From NCBI GenBank assembly GCA_018398765.1, contig JAHBMJ010005873.1, forward strand, positions 34,515 to 57,856: a DNA stretch of 23,342 bases, given 5' to 3'. The notes below the pieces were generated by a model, which worked only from the letters and a program-made list of their open reading frames with translations, had not been told where the DNA came from and ran no database searches. The stretch is from Chromera velia (Eukaryota > Sar > Chromeraceae). Numbering within the stretch: the stretch's first letter is position 1; every line of letters begins with the position of its first letter. Made by a program: the position numbers and the translations under genes. This document shows, piece by piece, positions 3,790 through 22,709 of the stretch.

Positions 3790-5108
3790 AGGCATTCATT
3801 CATTCATTCTGAGGGCGGTAACGAGACCCACTCATTGATCGATGGATTTACTGATCGACTCACTGACTGGTTCGTTCATACGCTGGTTGAGCGATCGATC
3901 AGCTGACTGATGGATGGATGGATGGATGCATCGATCGACTGCATGGAGGCAGAGAAGAGGCAGACATGACTGACTAATTGAATGATACACTGACAGGCGA
4001 ATGTTTGAGTGAGTGAGTGAGTGAATGAATGAATGAATTGCTTAAATCTCGAATGACGAGTTTTGGAGTTCCAGACCCATGCATAGGTTTTCCTGACTGA
4101 CTGACTGACTGCTGAAGTGTATGGTTGATTGGATGAATGATCGAAAAAATTGACGCACGCACTTGTTTCTGCCCAAAGGCAACGGCGGCTTCTGCGCTGA
4201 GACTTTCAAAGAAGCTTTGGGGGGGGGCGGCTGGGACGCCGTCACTGAAGATGATGATGAGGCTGTCTGCAAGCATGAAGGAAGGAAGAACGGTTCAAAA
4301 CATGCATGCTCTCAATCAAGTGCAGGCAGACAGAGGTTTATTCATTTTTTTTTTTCATACAGAGAAAAAGAATTCTGTATGAAAGTAAACGCATGCTCTC
4401 AATCAAGTGCAGGCAGACAGAGGTTTATTTTTTCTTTCTGTGTCCCGCCTCGCATTCCTTTGCTCTCTCTATCTCCATGCACTTGGCCGTGCTCCTCTCT
4501 CATCAGTCTCTGTATCATCTTTCTGTCTGTATCGCTTTTATTTATTTTTTTATTTCTCTGTATTGGTGTCTGCTCTCTCTATCTCCATGCACTCGGCCGT
4601 GCTCCTTCGATCCTGCGTGAATATCTCTCTCTCTCTCTCTCTCTCACCTTGACCGACCGACCTTCGTGTTCTCCTTATTGTCCTTCTCCTCTAACTTGAG
4701 CATTTTGATTCCTTCTGTAATAGCCCCCACGCCGCCATTCTGTTTCTGCGGAGGGGGCGCCTGCAGGTGAGCAGGCAGGCAGGCAGGCAGGCAGGCGTGT
4801 GCGCATCGAATTTGAATGAGTACTCGTCAGCATGGGTGTTCAATCAGGAATCCAAGCAGACTATATGTTTCTTCTTTTCCCTCTATTTCTTCAGACAGAC
4901 TATATGTTTCTTCTTCTTCTCCCTCCTTTTCTTTATGAACACAACAGACAAAAAGAAAGAAAGAACAAAGACAAAAGAACAGCACCAACAATCAAACAAC
5001 GTGGGCAGGGGGCCCGAAAGGTGAGAGTTAAGCGCCCCTTGCCTCTCCACCTCCCGACAGACTTTCACGTGATCACTGGTTTCACACGCTACTCCTCTGC
5101 TGCTTCCA
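1276..5108 (-). CDS. Multi-exon hypothetical gene, Ser/Pro/Gly-rich (gene 1)
   Basis: Not recognised. Proposed minus-strand exons in order: 5108-5063, 4760-4662, 4266-4163, 3489-3204, 2483-2400, 1679-1620 and, weakly, a terminal exon 1386-1276 ending in TAG. Each has an AG acceptor (usually CTGCAG or GCATGCAG) and a GT donor, and successive phases agree (0, 0, 2, 0, 0, 0). Recognisable pieces are a charged segment with GAITEGIKMLKLEEKDNKEN, a Ser/Pro-rich exon, a Gly/Lys-rich exon ending in PPPIRTNPEDVSEL, then EGVEPKCGRENGGVKEVFLR and EGTTAMLFALINPGGALSSV. No catalytic motif or membrane signature is clear. The first exon is not found; 5198-5703 or gene 2 may supply it. The best-supported exons are 4760-4662, 3489-3204, 2483-2400 and 1679-1620. 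Low-complexity sequence around the exons makes false joins possible. Confidence 0.45.
1392..1528. repeat. Direct duplication around an AATCCAAAAT-rich spacer
   Basis: About 34-36 bp (CTCAAGAGAGACAATGAATG and following bases to ACACGAC) occurs at 1392-1425 and 1493-1528. The copies differ by small indels in the AGAG and GAAT runs. The 67-bp spacer holds four degenerate AATCCAAAAT units. On the minus strand the lower copy runs into the proposed acceptor of the terminal exon at 1386. Confidence 0.8.
1668..1794. repeat. Direct duplication of a splice acceptor and exon start
   Basis: An identical 21-bp block (TGTGGTTCCCTCCTGCAGGCA on plus, less one base) lies at 1668-1688 and 1774-1794, each followed by CAGG repeats. 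On the minus strand each copy reads CTGCAG then GAGGGAACCACA, that is, acceptor plus the first codons of the exon 1679-1620. The 85-bp spacer is AT-rich. Confidence 0.75.
2331..2371. repeat. CA/CG dinucleotide repeat
   Basis: Run of CA, then CG, then CA dinucleotides. It sits in a proposed minus-strand intron, just downstream of the donor of exon 2483-2400. Confidence 0.9.
2831..2912. repeat. Two tandem 41-bp copies, pyrimidine-rich with CAGACAGAC
   Basis: CTTCTTTTTTCTTTTTGTTC followed by TTCTTCCTGACAGACAGAC occurs at 2831 and again at 2872, directly adjacent. It lies in a proposed minus-strand intron of gene 1. No coding signal is seen here. Confidence 0.85.
3525..3790. repeat. CA, purine-rich GGGGAGAAGGA and CA/GA repeats
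   Basis: A CA run covers roughly 3528-3566, G/A-rich GGGGAGAAGGA-like units cover about 3605-3705, and CA followed by GA runs cover about 3741-3789. All lie in the proposed minus-strand intron between exons 4266-4163 and 3489-3204. The overlapping open frames on both strands are repeat-driven. Confidence 0.9.
4304..4429. repeat. 39-bp direct duplication flanking a small inverted-repeat insert
   Basis: An identical 39-bp block starting GCATGCTCTCAATCAAGTGC lies at 4304-4342 and 4391-4429. The 48-bp spacer has an 11-bp perfect inverted repeat (TTTCATACAGA at 4353-4363, TCTGTATGAAA at 4374-4384). Bases 4364-4395, which run from the spacer into the second copy, are identical over 32 bp to 20043-20074. 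It lies in an intron of gene 1. Confidence 0.9.
4461..4606. repeat. 36-bp direct duplication with 74-bp spacer
   Basis: TGCTCTCTCTATCTCCATGC plus the bases to GCTCCT occurs at 4461-4496 and 4571-4606 with one mismatch (ACTTGG/ACTCGG). The spacer is T-rich. It is a neighbour of the 4304-4429 duplication in the same intron. Confidence 0.85.
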
Positions 5109-10176: not shown

Positions 10177-10420
10177 TTGCGTTTCAATCCATCTTCTCTT
10201 TCTCTGCATGCCTGTGGCGTCTCTGTTTTCATCCTTCTCATTTTCTCTTTTTGCCTCTCTCTGAATCGTTCGATCGCTCTGCAGTCTGCCTCTTTCTTTG
10301 CTTCAAACGTTTCCCTCTTCTTTGCCTCTCTTGCTTGCAGCAGGAGAGCCGAGCTCTCTTCTTCATCGTCCGCCCCCCCCTCTCTTCTTCGTCGTCATCG
10401 CGATTGCCCTGCACATTTCT
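8956..10420. other. Non-coding-looking region, purine/pyrimidine tracts
   Basis: No gene is supported. 9060-9440 has a recurring CCTTTGGG-like motif (about 9136, 9226, 9339, 9428), often next to CTGA or TGAC. 9490-9700 is A/G-rich and gives a Lys/Arg open frame by composition. 9880-9930 has A and C homopolymers. Two short hairpins lie at 9937-9954 (CACCAC/GTGGTG) and about 9968-9992 (CCTCAA/TTGAGG). 10137-10170 is a CT dinucleotide run. Confidence 0.6.
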
Positions 10421-11207
10421 TTCTTCGAGATCGCGTGGGAGTCCTTGCAAGAACGTCTCGGTGTGCATCCCCCCCCTTTCTTCGAGATCGCGTGGGAGTC
10501 CTTGCAAGAAGGTCTCCGTCTGCATCCCCCCCTTTTCTTCGAGATTGCGTGGGAGTCCTTGCAAGAACGTCTCCATCTGCATCCCCCCCCTTTCTTCGAG
10601 AGCGTGGGAGTCCTTGCAAGAACGTCTCCGTGTGCATCCCCCCCCTTTCTTCGAGATCGCGTGGGAGTCCTTGCAAGAAGGTCTCCGTGTGCATCCCCCC
10701 CCTTTCTTCGAGATCGCGCGGCAGTCCTTGCAAGAAGGTCTCCGTGTGCATCCCCCCCCTTTCTTCGAGATCGCGCGGCAGTCCTTGCAAGAACGTCTCC
10801 GTGTGCATCCCCCCCCTTTCTTCGAGATCGCGTGGGAGTCCTTGCAAGAAGGTCTCCGTGTGCATCCCCCCCCTTTCTTCGAGATCGCGTGGGAGTCCTT
10901 GCAAGAAGGTCTCCGTGTGCATCCCCCGCCTTTCTTCGAGATCGCGTGGGAGTCCTTGCAAGAAGGTCTCCGTGTGCATCCCCCCCCTTTCTTCGAGATT
11001 GCGTGGGAGTCCTTGCAAGAAGGTCTCCGTGTGCATCCCCCCCCTTTCTTCGAGATCGCGCGGGAGTCCTTGCAAGAACGTCTCCGTGTGCATCCCCCCC
11101 CTTTCTTCGAGATCGCGTGGGAGTCCTTGCAAGAAGGTCTCCGTCTGCATCCCCCCCCTTTCTTCGAGATCGCGTGGGAGTCCTTGCAAGAACGTCTCCG
11201 ATGTTCG
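10421..11207. repeat. 57-bp minisatellite, 14 units
   Basis: Units starting TTCTTCGAGATCGCGTGGGA begin at 10421, 10478, 10535, 10592, 10647, 10704, 10761, 10818, 10875, 10932, 10989, 11046, 11103 and 11160. All spacings are 57 bp except one of 55, where a unit lost two bases near 10600, and the last unit is partial. Units vary at a few fixed places: GAACG/GAAGG, GTGGGAG/GCGGCAG, CCGTGTG/CCGTCTG and the length of the C run. Because 57 is divisible by three, the array is open in most of the six frames; these ORFs are by-products. A degenerate half-unit precedes it at about 10370-10420. Confidence 0.95.
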
Positions 11208-11639
11208 GATGCCTGGCTGGTTGACTGGATGACTGACTGCATGAGCTCTCGATCATGCGCGCGTGTTGTTTGTATCGCAATTCACTCGCTCAGCCTGCCG
11301 TTTGATCGTTTGTCTGCATGCCTTTGTTGGCCATCTTTGAACGTGTCTTTCTCGATCGGTGTTCAAACGGAATCATGGCGTGCCTGTGCATCACAGAAGC
11401 AACCTGAGAGATTCTGATCGAACAGCATGCGAGACAGAACAGTCCTTTCCGCCTGCATGTCCGTCTTCGGTCACTCATGTCTGAGATGCTCGTGTGAGAC
11501 GTTGTATATGAATCGATCGTTGCATATGGTATGCATAGGCTGGCCGGCCGCTGTCGTCGCCTGTCGATCGTTGTCTAGATCGCTGTATGAGTCGATCGTT
11601 CTAGCAATCGTTGCATGCCCGGTGCCGTGCCTTACATTG

Positions 11640-15221: not shown

Positions 15222-17896
15222 GCACACCCACCTGTACATGCATGTATAGATGGTTGGGGGTATACATATGTTCACGATCTATCTTCGTCTTTCGGTCTTT
15301 CGAGGACACTCAAAAAAACATGCAGTGTGTTTCACAGCTAGAGACTGCCAATCACCCCGTCTCGTCTTTCTAACGAAAGAGCAGACATGCGCAAAGAAGC
15401 CTATGCACACGCAGACAATCGGTCATACAGGAAAGGAAACACATCAAGGACAGAACAGACAGACACACACACACACACACACACACACAGGTCTCCATGA
15501 ATTCAGACGACCCACCGCAGGCCATTGAGGTGTCCGTCTCGTTTAAAGTTCCCGACCAGGGTGGGTGCGTGCAGCTGCGTCTGGGCCATCGTGATCATCG
15601 GAGTGAAGAACCCGACCTGCTTGCAGGCAGGGAGGGAGAGAGGGAGACAGACGGAAGAAGAGAGTGAGGGAGGGAGGGATCCTCAGGGGGCTCTACAGGA
15701 TGAATCAGAGGAAACAGAAAGGTCGACAGGCGAAGTGCTCGCCGCATTTAATTCTGCCAACAGACAGCGACATGACAGAAATCGATCGGGGAGCTGGGGG
15801 CAGGCAGGAATGTAGAGAGAGAAATTAAGCGAATTAAGTGAAGCATGCATACAGACAATTAATTTGCATGCAGGTCGAGGTTCATTGACCCGGTCGAGGA
15901 GCTCTTTTTCTTTCTTTTCCCATACACCTCTTTGCAAACCCATGCAGGCGGACAAAGCGTGAGTGTACACACACACACACACACACACACACAGACGTAC
16001 GGACGCTAACATGTCTATACACATGTACATATACGTATACACGAGAGTGGGCGCGCATCGCGCGCCGAAGAATTTCGGACAACGTAGTACGCGGACGAAC
16101 CGAGTATAGAAGCGCACACAAACTTTGTGTTTTGTCAATTCTGGCGATTCGGCTTCCCAAAAACGTAACGCGCTGAGAGTGAGATTGGACTATAGAAGAG
16201 TAAGACATATACATGCACCGTCTGGCGGTTGACTGACGTTCTGTCCCCCGTCGACTTCCTCTGGCAGTTTGAAGACATAGTCTGACTTGGGCACGATCAA
16301 GATCTCCTCGACCAGCTTCACGTCCGCCGTCTCCTTCTCCCAGTCCACCTCGGAGACCTCAATTATCATCAGACTGCACGGCACCTGCAGATTTTTTCGT
16401 TTTCATATGTACGTATGTACTTTGTATTCTATGTATTCTATCTATGTATGCACAGTTTACCTCGGAGACCTCAATGATCATCAGACTGCACGGCACCTGC
16501 AGGCAGATTTGGGCGGACGGCAGTCATCGGTTGGGATGGCCAAGATGCGTTGGTTGTCTTCGAAGGGAAGGGAAGGAAAGGAAAGTGTTCGGAGAGGCCT
16601 ACCAGAACAGATGGTAAAAAGAGGACAATTGTCTCGAAGAAAAGTTTTGGTCCAATCCTGCTACTCCCTGACAGAATTTGTTTGCATACCCACCTCTTGA
16701 CACAAAATATTCACTAACCTGTAGCGGTCCCCCTGCAGCGATGTGGAATGTCTTCCCGTCATCCATTGCCCCCACATGAACGTTTTCATATGTATGTATG
16801 TATGTATGTATCTATGTATGTATATATGTATGTATGTATGTAGGTATGTATTTTGTCTGTATGCACACTCACTCACTAACCTGTAGCGGTCCCCCTGCAG
16901 CGATGTGGAACGTCTTCCCGTCATCCATTGCCCCCACATGAACGATGGGTCCGATTGGGTGAACAGTCGGGAGACTGAGCAGGTTGTAGATGATCATTTG
17001 GTGCGTGCGTGCGTTGACGAGCGCAAAGTCCGCAAGAAGAATGTCCCCGTAGGCGTACCAAATGTCGCCGTCAATGTCCCCACCCCCCCCGGAGAGTTTG
17101 CCCTTCAGGGATAGAGGGGCAAACCTTTGGAGAGGGTCCCAGTGCTCCCTCACGTCCCTCCGGGCCATGTACGCTGGGGTGTCCTTGTCAATGTATCTGC
17201 ACGTATATACATTTATTTTCATACAGAATGATGCATACATTTGTTTTCAGACAGAATGATGCATACATGCACTTATCTTCATACAGTATGTATACGCAGG
17301 GGTGTCCTTATCGATGTATCTGCACGTACACAGGAGAAGGGGGAGGAAGCCGTTCTTTCGGCAGTGTGTGAATCGTTAGCGTGTGTTGTAGACTGTTTGC
17401 CATGCGTGTGGTGGGGCTCTGGGGCTGTTGCCCTGTACATGCATGCTCATGTGTGCAGATGGTGTGACAACTACGCCTCAATTTACACGGATGTCTTTCG
17501 TGCAAGTAGAGTGCATCTGAAGACACGTACGCATACGTGTACGTACTTTGGCGGGTAAGCTTCCAGGAAGGGCGGGAGCTGTTGCCTGAACTCATTGGTC
17601 CACTCTGGCAAGTACTTGCCGAGCTTCTGTATCTCCTTCACGCGGTCTCTCACAGCGAAGTATTCCTCCACAGCCCCGTAGGAGGTCGGGAACTCTTTTC
17701 GGATCTCCAACGCTACCTGCTTCCTCATCGCCCCCTTCGCCCTCTCTGCCACCTCTCCTTCTTCTCCAGAGAGACCCTCGAACAGAGTGCCCAAGCCCTT
17801 CAAGTCGAACTCGAATGCACCGTTGTCGGAGGAGGCTTGCGAGAGCAGGATGCTCATGTAAAGCACCCCCAGCGGAATAAAAGAAAGGGAGCGCAT
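12801..17896 (-). CDS. Secreted nine-exon protein of unknown family, beta-propeller-like
   Basis: Exons (minus strand): 17896-17547, 17196-16881, 16384-16238, 15616-15516, 15136-14959, 14692-14619, 14463-14234, 13861-13253 and 12982-12801. Together they make 2187 nt, 728 codons plus TGA, with matching phases at all eight junctions. All donors fit GTNNGT, and acceptors are mostly GCAG. Residues 1-23 (MRSLSFIPLGVLYMSILLSQ...) are a typical signal peptide. Residues 24-116 look helical and charged. From about 140 to 560 there are repeated aromatic/Asp strand-like blocks, for example DIDGDIWYAYGDILLADFAL, WVYWNVYSDDRILLIDP, LFEVDLETGDLTFKRTFYYG and ELVYHPSTDQLFLVVAE. These resemble blades of a beta-propeller; that is inference from pattern only. 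About 500-540 is an acidic then Lys/Arg-rich insert. The C-terminal exon adds another such block and a Cys-containing tail. No catalytic motif was identified. Three exon borders carry partial duplications. Confidence 0.85.
13140..13252. repeat. CTGT/CTGC/GACT tetranucleotide runs in an intron
   Basis: These fill the end of the intron between exons 13861-13253 and 12982-12801. On the minus strand the donor GTCAGTCAG is the first unit of the tetranucleotide run. Confidence 0.85.
15187..15222. repeat. CAGA repeat in intron
   Basis: About nine CAGA units in the intron between exons 15616-15516 and 15136-14959. A CA dinucleotide run follows at about 15464-15489 in the same intron. Confidence 0.9.
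15966..16200. repeat. CA run and small hairpin inside intron
   Basis: A CA dinucleotide run covers about 15967-15993. Near 16050-16066 GGCGCGC-ATC-GCGCGCC forms a perfect 7-bp stem with a 3-nt loop. Both are in the 621-bp intron between exons 16384-16238 and 15616-15516. I saw no embedded gene. Confidence 0.7.
16347..16502 (-). repeat. 44-bp duplication of acceptor plus exon start; possible 36-nt mini-exon
   Basis: 16347-16390 and 16459-16502 are identical except one base (AATTATC/AATGATC), with a 68-bp spacer between. On the minus strand each copy reads CTGCAG followed by the exon start for VPCSLMIIEVSE. The upstream copy is bounded by an acceptor (CTGCCTGCAG) and by GTAAAC, which would make a phase-neutral 36-nt exon at 16496-16461. 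Using both copies would repeat those 12 residues; skipping the upstream copy gives one. Confidence 0.9.
16711..16944 (-). repeat. 72-bp duplication of exon end plus donor
   Basis: 16711-16782 and 16873-16944 differ at one base. Each holds the end of the exon coding for MDDGKTFHIAAGGPLQ plus the donor GTTAGTGA. The upstream copy (higher coordinates) is contiguous with exon 17196-16881. The downstream copy sits in the intron after a 90-bp spacer rich in ATGT tetramers that starts TTTTCATATGTATG on plus. Confidence 0.9.
17170..17328 (-). repeat. 36-bp duplication of acceptor plus exon start; possible 24-nt mini-exon
   Basis: 17170-17205 and 17293-17328 match with three differences. On minus, each copy has CGTGCAG and then codons for YIDKDTPAY. 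The upstream copy could be a 24-nt phase-neutral exon (17319-17296) if GTATAC acts as donor. The 87-bp spacer contains TTTTCATACAGAATGATGCA and a near copy, TTTTCAGACAGAATGATGCA. Confidence 0.85.
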
Positions 17897-18658: not shown

Positions 18659-21600
18659 ATGTCGTGCGGTCTACTTCCTCTCGCTGACGACCTTGTTGAC
18701 TTTTTTGTGGACGGCGTGTTGAAGGGCGATCCAGTCTTTCTTGAATGCAAACGCTCGGCCATCGACTTGGCAACACACTTGGAAAAGGAGAAGGACAAGC
18801 CAGAGAGACAACAGAGAGGGAAGGCCGAGAGCGCGGAGGCAGATGCGCAAGAGCAAGCACGGTTGTTGGAGGCGGTCAACGGAGTTGTGCAGAGAGAGGA
18901 ATTCGCCAACCACATAAAAAGCGCGGCGTACCGGTTTTACCTCGGCACAGAGGGACTCAAACTCAGGCGCAAAGCCCGTCTCTGTCTGGGAGGCCCTCAA
19001 GGTGGGTAGAGGGAATGTGTGTGTGGGGGGTCAAGAATGGCAGAGAGAAAGGAAAAGAGGGAGAAGGAAGTAGGGACCGAACGAAGAAACGGCAGAGGGA
19101 CTGAAAAAACCAAACAAAGAAGGAATGGCAGACAGAATGAAGCAAGGCAGGACGGAGGAATGCAAGAAAAACAGGAGGCAAGGAAGTCTATCTACGCAGC
19201 CTTTTGTGGAGAGAAAAGGGTATAAAGAAAATACGACTTCGGAGGGCCGTGCGTCCACGTATCCCTGTTTACGTCCCTGTCCGTTCGTTCATTTGCCCGT
19301 CCGTCTATCCCTCTGCCTGCAGGTTCACTCGGCATACCTGAGTCAGTGTTCCAACAACCCAAAACGGGTGAGTGGGTATCTGGGAGTGCAGGTAGGGGTG
19401 GAAGTGTTTTTTCTCAAATTTGTATTTCCTTTTCCCTTCTCCGTTCTCTCATTTCCCTGTTCTGCTTTGACGTCCTGTCGCCCCGCATCAAGCACTCCAG
19501 TGTCTTGGCATCAGTCCTCACACTCGATCAGCCCTTCAGTTACCCTCTCTCTGCCTTTCTCTTTGTGTCCCTTTTCTTCCTCTCCCTCAACCCTTTCCCC
19601 CCCTCCCCCGGGCCCTCTGTGACTCCGTCCGTCCGTCCGTCCGTCCGTCGGTCTACGCATCATCGATCGATCAGCAATCCAGATGGATCCGCCTGCCTGC
19701 CTGCCTGCAGGGTCCTTTGATGCCCACGCAGGGCTGATCGATGCGAGGTCGAAGTGGGCAGCGCGGCTGCGGAAGGTTCGTGTTAGAAAGAAAGGGGAGG
19801 GGTGTGTGGTCGTTTGGGAGCTCAAATGTGCAAACCCTCTGCCTCTGAGGGTCCTCCTCTCTGCTTTGGAGTGAGTGAGTGAGGTGGCAGGGAAGAATTA
19901 AGTGACCTCAGTTTGGTTGGTTTGTCTTCCTCCTGTGTTTTTTCTATTTCAGCTGGTGGAATGTCTGTCAGGGAGGGACCTGGCACACCGGAACGAACTT
20001 TTTGTTTTTGCTTTCATACAGAATTCTTTTTCAGGGAGCGCTGAAAAAGAATTCTGTATGAAAGTAAACGCATGAACTGTCAGGGAGGGACCTGGCACAA
20101 CGGAACGAACTTTTTGAGATTTGGCTTCTTTCTGAACCTTGCGTCTTCTCTCTTATTTCTCTGTTTCTTTTCAGTTCCTTCCAGCGTGTCTTGCTGCTTG
20201 GCCATTCTTTTCTTCTGTCGCTTTTTTTTTCTTCCTCCCTTCCTTTTGCTTCCCCTTCCTTTCTTCCGTCTTCCTTTCCGGAATTGCGACTTCTCTGCAT
20301 TCATTCATTCATTCATTTTCAGACCGAATTCTTCTTTCTGTCTTCCTTCCTTCCAGGAATTGCGACTTCTCTGCATTCATTCATTCATTCATTTTCAGAC
20401 CGAATTCTTCTTTCTGTCTTCCTTCCTTCCAGGAATTGCGACTTCTCTGTATTCATTCATTCATTTTCAGACCGAATTCTTCTTTCTGTCTTCCTTCCTT
20501 CCAGGAATTGCGACTTCTCTGCAGGGAGCAGACGCAACCTGTGCTCAGGTCTGTTTGTCTGCTTAGTTTTCTGGCTGTGCATGCGTGGGTGTGTCTGCTT
20601 AATTGTCTGTTTGAAAGTCAGGGGAGCGATTTGGGAGGATCAGTCAGGTCGGGAGGATTTGTTCAGGCAGTTCAGGAAGAAAGAAGAATAAATACAACAT
20701 GTTGGCAGGTGAAAGGGAGAGAGGGACTGGTTTTGCTAAACGACGCGAAAGAGAAAACGTTTACACATGACGCAGGTCTATTAGTATTTATCTGACGGCT
20801 CAGGACATGCATCAAACAAATAAATGATGCACGCATGGACGCATCCAAATAAGTGACGCACGCACATATATTCATCTGACGGCTCAGTACATGCATCAAA
20901 CAAACAAATAAATGAATGAATGTGTGATTGCAGAGTGAGGCAACCAGAAAATGAACCAGAAGAAGTGCAGACACGGCCCCTTGCGGAAATGCCGGAGCTC
21001 TACCAAGTCCGTCTTTTGTCTCGTCTCGTTTCATTGTTTTTCCTCCCTCCCCCCTTTGCTCTCTCTGGCTTTCTGTCTCTCCTCTCGCGTGGAGGGCTCG
21101 AGGCCTAGGTGTATCCCATGCAACCAATAAGTCGGGGGGGGTTCCCCTTCCTTCTCTTTCTCTCTCTGCTGTTTGGTTTCGCAGAATCCAGTCTAACTCT
21201 TGTGGTTTTTTTTTTTGTTCACACAAGATCTTCCCTTTGTTTGAGAATATCCTTAGAGATGTTTTTATTCGTCCGTGAACCCAGACTCACTTTCTTCTTT
21301 CTTCTGCCTCTCTTTTTTTTCATCTTCTCATCGACTCTTGGCTTTTGCTTCCGTTCCTTTTTTTTTTTGCCTGCCCTCTTTCTTTCTTTCTTTCTTTCTT
21401 TTCTTCCTTTCTTTCTTTCTTTCTTTCTTTCTTTCTGTTTGTCTGTCTGCCTGCCTGTCTGTCTGTCTGTCTGTCCGTCTTTCTTTCTTTCTTTCTTTCT
21501 TTCTTTCCTCTTTTCATCCCTCCCTCTGCACTGCAGGCCGCTCTCTCGTTCCAGCCCTCCTACTCCCCGTCTGTGCGTCTGCCTGGCTCCCTCGGGCTTT

Positions 21601-22709
21601 CTTCCTCTGTTCCTCCTCCGTCCTCCCCCTCTGGCTCCAGTAGCTCGGCAGGGGGGGCAGGGGGGACGGCAGGGGATTTGGGGAAAGGGGGTGGTTCTTC
21701 TTCTGTGCCTGTGCAGAAAGGGGGCGGTGCGGTGCTCGTGTCTGACCTCGTGAAGGCAGTCAGGGGGGGAGGCTGGAAGGACAGAGAGAAGCAGCAAGGG
21801 GCCCATCAGAGTGAAGGAGAGAGGGCGAAAGGAGGGAGTCAGAAGGAAGGAGGAGACGGAAAAGAAAAGGATAAGGTGAGCAACGAGAACGAGGCGGACA
21901 AGCAGAAGCGAAATCAAGGGGGGGAGAATCTCGCTCTGCTGAACTCTTCTTGGTGCTGTGTGAAGGCGCTGCTCCCGACAGGTCGGTCGGTCGGTTGGGT
22001 GAAGTTGGTTGGGTGTGCATACAGCTCTGTATGTGTTTATTTTCGCAGGCTTACTTGCAGTCAAACTTCTTCGTCAAAACTTTTCTTCCTGCCACAGGTG
22101 GGTGGAATCCTGTAGTTGTCTTTTCATACGTTTTATCTGGAAGGGGACGCAAATTTATTCCCGTCTCCATTCGCGTAGTCCCCTTTCGTTACTCTTCGCA
22201 TTTTTGGGGTTTCTTTTGTGTGTTGTCAGTAGGTGTTTTCTTGGCTCCAGTGTCTCTTTTAGTGACAATCACTTGTTGTACTATCGATAAACTTCCTTTT
22301 GCCATACTCATCTTTGAGAGTCTGTCTCTCTGTTTGTTCAGATTCCCTGTGGACTCTGCGAAAGAAATACTGGATGTTTTTGGATATGTTTGGAATATCC
22401 AGATAAAAATGTCTCTCTGTTTGTTCAGATTCCCTGTGGACTCTGCGAAAGAAATACTGGGAACTGGGAGTTGAATATCCACAGGTGGGTGGGGGGGTGC
22501 ATGGGGGGGGGTCTGTCTGCTTGGATGGAGGCTTTGCATGGGCGATTCTGTCTCTGTCTCTCTCTGTCTCTCTCTGGGCGGAAGGGTCTTCGTGTGTCTA
22601 CCCAGATTGTGCCTGCCCTCCCTCCACTCTTCCCTCCCTCGCTTTTGCTTTGGTCGATAGATTTGGCTGGAGAGGACAGACTTCGCCTCTCCTTTCTTCA
22701 CTTCATGGC

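Follow-up and report, generated by a model that had tools for sequence, protein, structure and literature searches.

Short inserts scattered through the Chromera velia genome, each set between long direct repeats of host DNA, appear to be patchworks of one unit of about 44 nt, called T here (TGCATGCRTTTACTTTCATACAGAATTCTTTTTCAGGGAGCGCT), and of its complement; judged by their sequence, they do not look like copies of one element with terminal inverted repeats. We propose, with a probability of about 0.6, that each insert is the product of two-ended templated synthesis on a single short template at a staggered break.

The window, which is the whole stretch of 23,342 nucleotides analysed here, contains three places belonging to this family. 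The insert at 20005-20076 carries a perfect hairpin whose arms (20011-20034, plus strand, and 20041-20064, minus strand) are exact reverse complements over 24 bp, with a 6-nt loop, GGAGCG, at 20035-20040. This is the longest perfect inverted repeat in the window with a loop of 20 nt or less, compared with 8-11 bp in dinucleotide shuffles (n = 20). On either side lies a 40-bp copy of duplicated host sequence (19965-20004 and 20077-20116, identical at 39 of 40 positions). By tiling and arm comparison, the insert consists of one sense and one antisense copy of T with a few other terminal bases. The sense piece (20007-20042, plus strand) runs from TTTGC to the inner limit AGCGCT, and the antisense piece (20043-20074, minus strand) from GAAAAAG to GCATG, and at the turn the two pieces may share 4 bases (CGCT). 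The two arms are unlike in their outer variants, TTTGC and TTTAC.

Positions 20043-20074 are identical to 4364-4395 over 32 bp, and the match extends on neither side. The latter segment begins in the second family insert (4343-4390), where genome matches and arm comparison indicate a short sense piece ending TTTCATACAGA and then an antisense piece from 4364. Its flanking duplicates, 4304-4342 and 4391-4429, are identical at 39 of 39 positions; the border between insert and right duplicate is ambiguous because GCATG at 4391-4395 closes the antisense piece as well. The original prediction of the hairpin, the shared 32-bp segment and the flanking duplications was reproduced exactly. The identity of the two segments does not, however, mark a special relation between two sites, since the segment is one arm of a genome-wide family. 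At the third place (17170-17328), repeat alignment defines duplicates at 17170-17205 and 17293-17328 (36 bp, 92% identical) around an insert at 17206-17292 that includes TTTATTTTCATACAGAA.

Other repeats are also present in the window. A unit of about 72 bp occurs three times at 20281-20521, with TTTTCAGACCGAATTCTTC resembling a decayed T arm and an acceptor-like TTCCAG; a tandem array of a 57-bp unit, CTTTCTTCGAGATCGCGTGGGAGTCCTTGCAAGAAGGTCTCCGTGTGCATCCCCCCC, occupies 10420-11210; and a long degenerate array of CTGT-type tetranucleotides covers 1-1270. Three assembled stretches of the window gave no match to Pfam.

The genome searched comprises 177.8 Mb in 4,040 contigs. Matches in it number 58 for light-harvesting proteins (PF00504) and 11 for alveolins (PF12314); the plastid gene psbA had no match in the assembly, a result with no bearing on the host. 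At least 105 matches to the 72-bp insert were found with 40 of 145 candidates scored, many places matching on both strands, and at least 55 to the second window site (query 4340-4403; 40 of 124 candidates scored), many of them on further contigs. One 27-nt half of the insert, searched with up to 3 mismatches, matched 261 times (125 forward and 136 reverse), while the reversed-pattern control matched 0 times.

Flanks were fetched for places among the listed matches of the 72-bp insert and the 27-nt half, giving 107 independent places. A direct repeat round the insert scored at least 30 at 102 of these and at least 40 at 91. The places scoring below 30 are L057, L062, L081, one site of L054, and L079, at which there is no duplicate at all. 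For mismatched flank pairs (n = 699, under slightly different scoring) the 95% and 99% values were 24 and 40 and the maximum was 59. All 20 held-out places, taken from the second-site matches, reached at least 30 and 18 reached at least 40; in their control, with the same parameters and 570 pairs, the 99% value was 29 and the maximum 38, so that the two weakest held-out places (32 and 34) fall below that maximum. A multicopy family with flanking duplications, as originally predicted, is therefore present: it is not restricted to a few copies in the genome, and the places sampled do not lack duplications. The reversed-pattern, mismatched-flank and shuffle controls led us to reject a chance origin, and since the family occurs on many contigs, a single-site assembly error cannot explain it.

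The duplications are as unusually long as had been suggested, with a median of 42 bp (mean 44, sd 15, 91 places), and their length is not a constant of the family; the spread is inflated at its upper end by tandem arrays (L024, L026 and L058 among others) and at its lower end by decayed repeats. Units of repeat plus insert have also been amplified in tandem after insertion, as at L024:1957-2434, where five family inserts lie in a row, and at L058, L026, L116 and L120. The length distribution bears on a rather unlikely alternative, in which the inserts are a MITE-like, non-autonomous family with terminal inverted repeats, palindromic when inserted, whose transposase makes long and variable duplications and whose centres are later deleted or scrambled by hairpin-directed repair. 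Consistent duplication lengths mark DNA transposon families and variable lengths mark LINEs (PMC8969392), and the wide spread seen here therefore argues against a transposase.

The arms fit the one unit T, in which the outer variants TTTAC, TTTTC, TTTAT and TTCAT precede TTTCATACAG. The point within the outer 13 nt at which T starts varies from copy to copy. Of 199 arm occurrences, 30 extend to the inner limit, AGCGCT, and in no case does a longer shared sequence lie beyond it; what follows is T again, the complement of T, a short private string, or the flank. No special fold of T was detected (z = -0.38 and +0.81 for the two strands).

Tiling with T and its complement, at costs that were our own choice, was carried out for 88 inserts of 30-160 nt from 91 places. 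In 79 of the 88, the sense pieces all come before the antisense pieces (67 with both orientations and 12 with only one), and the order is broken in 9. The predicted terminal inverted repeats are thus found as opposed arms, sense and then antisense, in those 67. T restarts in the same orientation in 47 of the 88 inserts; L016 and L036, for example, both restart between GAATTCTTT and CATACAG, and L060 and L013 show head-to-tail reiteration. Neighbouring pieces overlap by at least 2 bases at restarts (18 of 37) and at turns (14 of 46) more often than the 16% given by random positions.

The centres of the inserts are nearly all private. The 59 inserts with two recognisable arms have 58 distinct arm-to-arm cores and 54 distinct sets of breakpoints (5 inserts share theirs with another), which is not the pattern of an interior common to the copies by descent. 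The single repeated core, in L035 and L048, is bordered by different outer variants in the two. No insert among the 59 consists simply of a full palindrome; in L009 such a palindrome is present, with one mismatch, and an additional half unit comes after it.

The two arms of an insert nevertheless agree with each other more than expected. Both arms were found at 72 of the 107 places, the other 35 lacking a usable pair, and 28 with an arm outside the four variants were left out; 38 of the resulting 44 have the same outer variant in both arms, where 17.1 would be expected. Exact 8-mers give agreement in 26 of 55 (13.0 expected). Mean repeat identity is 0.968 for TTTAC, 0.969 for TTTTC and 0.928 for the more decayed TTTAT, and as the first two are equal, age differences do not explain the agreement of the arms.

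Junctions with target DNA were measured at 74 loci, 127 junctions in all, with 12 loci, mostly arrays, left out by hand. T directly adjoins the repeat at 80 junctions, and other bases lie between duplicate and T at 47. Where T adjoins, its match runs at least 2 bases into the duplicate in 42 of 80 cases, compared with 28.6% in an insert-swap control, and at least 4 bases in 13 of 80, compared with 12.2% in simulation (Mann-Whitney p = 4e-5). The excess of microhomology to the target appears real but modest.

A MITE-like family would be expected to have symmetric ends, flanking duplications and variants common to both arms, and perfect palindromes are unstable, which also favours that alternative, as does the full-length palindrome, with its one mismatch, in L009. 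However, same-orientation restarts are not expected from deletion of a centre, nor do the variable starting points with their excess of target microhomology, or the want of even one plain full palindrome, fit such an origin. No long element with T ends was seen among the sampled places, which represent about half of the 261 half-copies. Of the miniature terminal-inverted-repeat element first proposed, then, the many copies, the symmetric ends and the long duplication stand, but the reading as such an element is not supported, given the variable duplication lengths, the private cores, the variable starts, the microhomology and the restarts.

Inserts between duplicated flanks are not limited to T. 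In the loci and the window together (255,888 bases) we identified 62 duplicated-flank events, 29 of them with family sequence, and block-shuffled sequence gave 0; as most loci were chosen for the T family, the 62 are not a genome-wide rate. Some of the non-family inserts, made of (TAA)n, (AT)n or CATA repeats, sit between perfect repeats of 47, 46 and 31 bp, an indication that T may be just one of the fillers used in a broader process. Among the non-family events, 26 have a spacer of at least 16; several of these are unflagged tandem arrays, one is a family piece (L013:2118), and about a dozen are, by eye, clean insert sites. Perfect duplications with (TAA)n, (AT)n and T-like fillers occur at L033:642-688 (47 bp), L025:860-905 (46 bp) and L015:1061-1099 (39 bp).

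These other fillers between similar perfect duplicates, together with slippage and microhomology at restarts, turns and target junctions, are what would be expected if staggered breaks were closed by DNA-templated end joining of a polymerase-theta-like or microhomology-mediated kind, with the ends copying genomic copies of T or stray DNA and no dedicated template RNA taking part. We consider this quite improbable, however. What recurs time after time is a single constant unit whose inner limit is fixed, and both ends use the same variant of it; scattered genomic templates should bring varied flanks with them, and the 30 full-length arms show none.

Two-ended synthesis on one template would proceed as follows. 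Nicks on opposite strands, typically about 42 nt apart, would open the site, and each 3' end would then anneal, often through 1-5 bases, to the outer part of the template T of about 44 nt. Each primed end would copy T inward, at most to AGCGCT, often slipping back and copying again; the two copies would be joined in the middle, often at 1-3 matching bases, and fill-in of the overhangs would duplicate the host DNA. Since the two ends of the break would read a single template, their copies would point towards each other; what look like terminal inverted repeats would then be a pair of opposed template copies, not transposon ends. The duplications, the order of the pieces, the private centres, the covariation of the arms and the excess of microhomology appear directly in the sequence, and around them we infer the nicking, the priming, the enzyme, RNA as the template and the order of the steps. 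We set aside fold-back of a single primed strand: inspection by eye shows slips in one arm that have no counterpart in the other, and a right arm that finishes at a target junction of its own. An inserted palindrome that was later repaired at its centre could produce some of the same features.

The template would most likely be an RNA copied by a reverse transcriptase, in a manner resembling twin priming or telomerase, since a single event reuses a discrete template that has a sharp limit. As in twin priming, two opposed copies are joined inside the insert (ordered in 79 of 88, with the same variant in 38 of 44), and microhomology is present, if modestly, at the target (42 of 80 against 28.6%) and at inner junctions (14 of 46 turns against 16%). 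As with telomerase, a bounded template is copied reiteratively, with restarts in 47 of 88 inserts and AGCGCT as the limit. Reverse transcriptases are abundant in the genome, all 150 scored candidates, of 1,759, being matches. We found no template RNA, source gene or enzyme, and no reverse transcriptase gene tied to T. Rfam, at gathering thresholds, returned nothing for the window and 8 loci (51,320 bases), so that a known RNA is unsupported as the source of T, and the telomerase profile PF12009 had no match in the genome, the same search being silent in all 14 control genomes as well. A more elaborate possibility, which we regard as doubtful, is a dedicated ribonucleoprotein that combines a bounded template of about 44 nt with a reverse transcriptase of the telomerase or Penelope kind. 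It would create wide staggered breaks, or mend them, and in doing so add its template sequence to each of the two ends. The template would then spread as a mobile element without any copy being cut out or transcribed whole, and the long duplications would permit harmless landing at exon edges through copying of splice sites.

T does supply the acceptor-like CATACAG and the donor-like GTAAAC noted in the original prediction, as well as the acceptor-like TTTTTCAG, and some duplicates have motifs resembling splice sites, two of them in genes supported by protein-family matches (L020 and L050). Of 20 open frames near family sites, 2 match Pfam (L020 and L061). At L020, a 20-bp repeat (2251-2270 and 2353-2372) includes both an acceptor-like TTTGTGCAG and the opening 11 bases of an open frame reading SVSQGACGSCYANAV, which we take to be the active-site motif of papain-like proteases; an upstream frame on the same strand matches CathepsinC_exc (E = 4.9e-7). 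At L050, the repeat (1960-1983 and 2028-2051) holds the end of the frame GFDPAGLEKYDKK and a donor-like GTGAG, and lies between two same-strand light-harvesting matches (E = 3.9e-12 and 3.1e-4, with one stop read through in each); GFDP we take to be a light-harvesting motif. The exon borders at both loci are predictions from the sequence. Since each of the two repeats holds a predicted splice site, it appears that a splice site can be copied along with the duplicated DNA, with one copy ending up on the correct side of the insert.

These strings and motifs are also what would speak for introner-like elements that create or supply introns, an origin that we judge very improbable. At L020 and L050 the element adjoins a splice site that is carried by duplicated host DNA, and enrichment tests do not support targeting of splice sites. 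TGCAG is found in the duplicates at 10.99 per kb compared with 4.27, but the same holds for TGCA with A, C or T as the next base, and for donor-like strings no consistent enrichment is seen (ratios of 1.35 and 0.39); because of this general enrichment of TGCA and the inconsistency of the donor-like strings, splice-site targeting was not accepted. The suggested likeness to introners accordingly extends to the splice-like strings in T, but not to the source of the splice site or to the length of the duplications. Three further places in the window (16347-16502, 16711-16944 and 22323-22460) have duplicated flanks of 44, 72 and 51 bp around AT-rich or hairpin-like inserts outside the T family, and their duplicates contain acceptor-like CTGCAG or TTCAG and donor-like GTTAGT, in the same orientation as the open frames nearby.

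If two-ended templated synthesis is the correct reading, a tiny sequence multiplies by having each copy rebuilt from one template, not by moving as a unit, and tools that seek common interiors and fixed duplications would tend to miss such families. Duplications of about 40 bp are long enough to take in a whole splice site, and this would provide a testable route to duplicated, shifted or buffered exon-intron borders. Among the papers listed from the open-licence literature, whose silence is weak evidence of absence, we recognised no published account of the T family.

Several known systems share features with these inserts. Introners of Amoebophrya and other protists are multicopy inverted repeats flanked by direct repeats, with alveolates among their hosts (PMC7789003, PMC9860276). 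Their published direct repeats, however, measure 3-5 nt in Amoebophrya and 3-9 bp in the other families, compared with a median of 42 bp here, and published introners are introns, whereas the T inserts are at most putative ones. MITEs are likewise short and multicopy, with symmetric ends and flanking duplications; the T inserts differ from them in their long, variable duplications, their nearly always private patchwork interiors and their variable starts. Penelope-like retroelements (PMC8969392) are target-primed and leave truncated, tandem or inverted partial copies, but no coding sequence or long body was seen at the T sites sampled.

Telomerase action at double-strand breaks, which yields interstitial telomeric sequences and TERC fragments, resembles the present case in that a fixed template is copied repeatedly at a break, with 1-5 nt of microhomology to the break, and in that staggered breaks have left a duplication at some loci (PMC2246262, PMC7215372). 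T differs in not being a short telomere-type repeat and in being copied from each side of the break. Duplication is also usual here (102 of 107 places) but rare in telomerase insertions, where 3 of 66 horse loci are given as a simple duplication. In twin priming by LINE-1, which gives 5'-inverted L1 copies, a single RNA is primed from the two ends of a staggered cut. The opposed cDNAs pair through a short match, microhomologies are seen, and the length of the target duplication varies (PMC2912911). Here, in contrast, each end starts within the same outer stretch of a unit of about 44 nt, which is why the product is nearly palindromic; the unit is reused within an insert, the duplications have a median of 42 bp, and no LINE body is attached. 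Among the published mechanisms that we considered, L1 twin priming and telomerase action at breaks appear to be the closest to what we propose for T.
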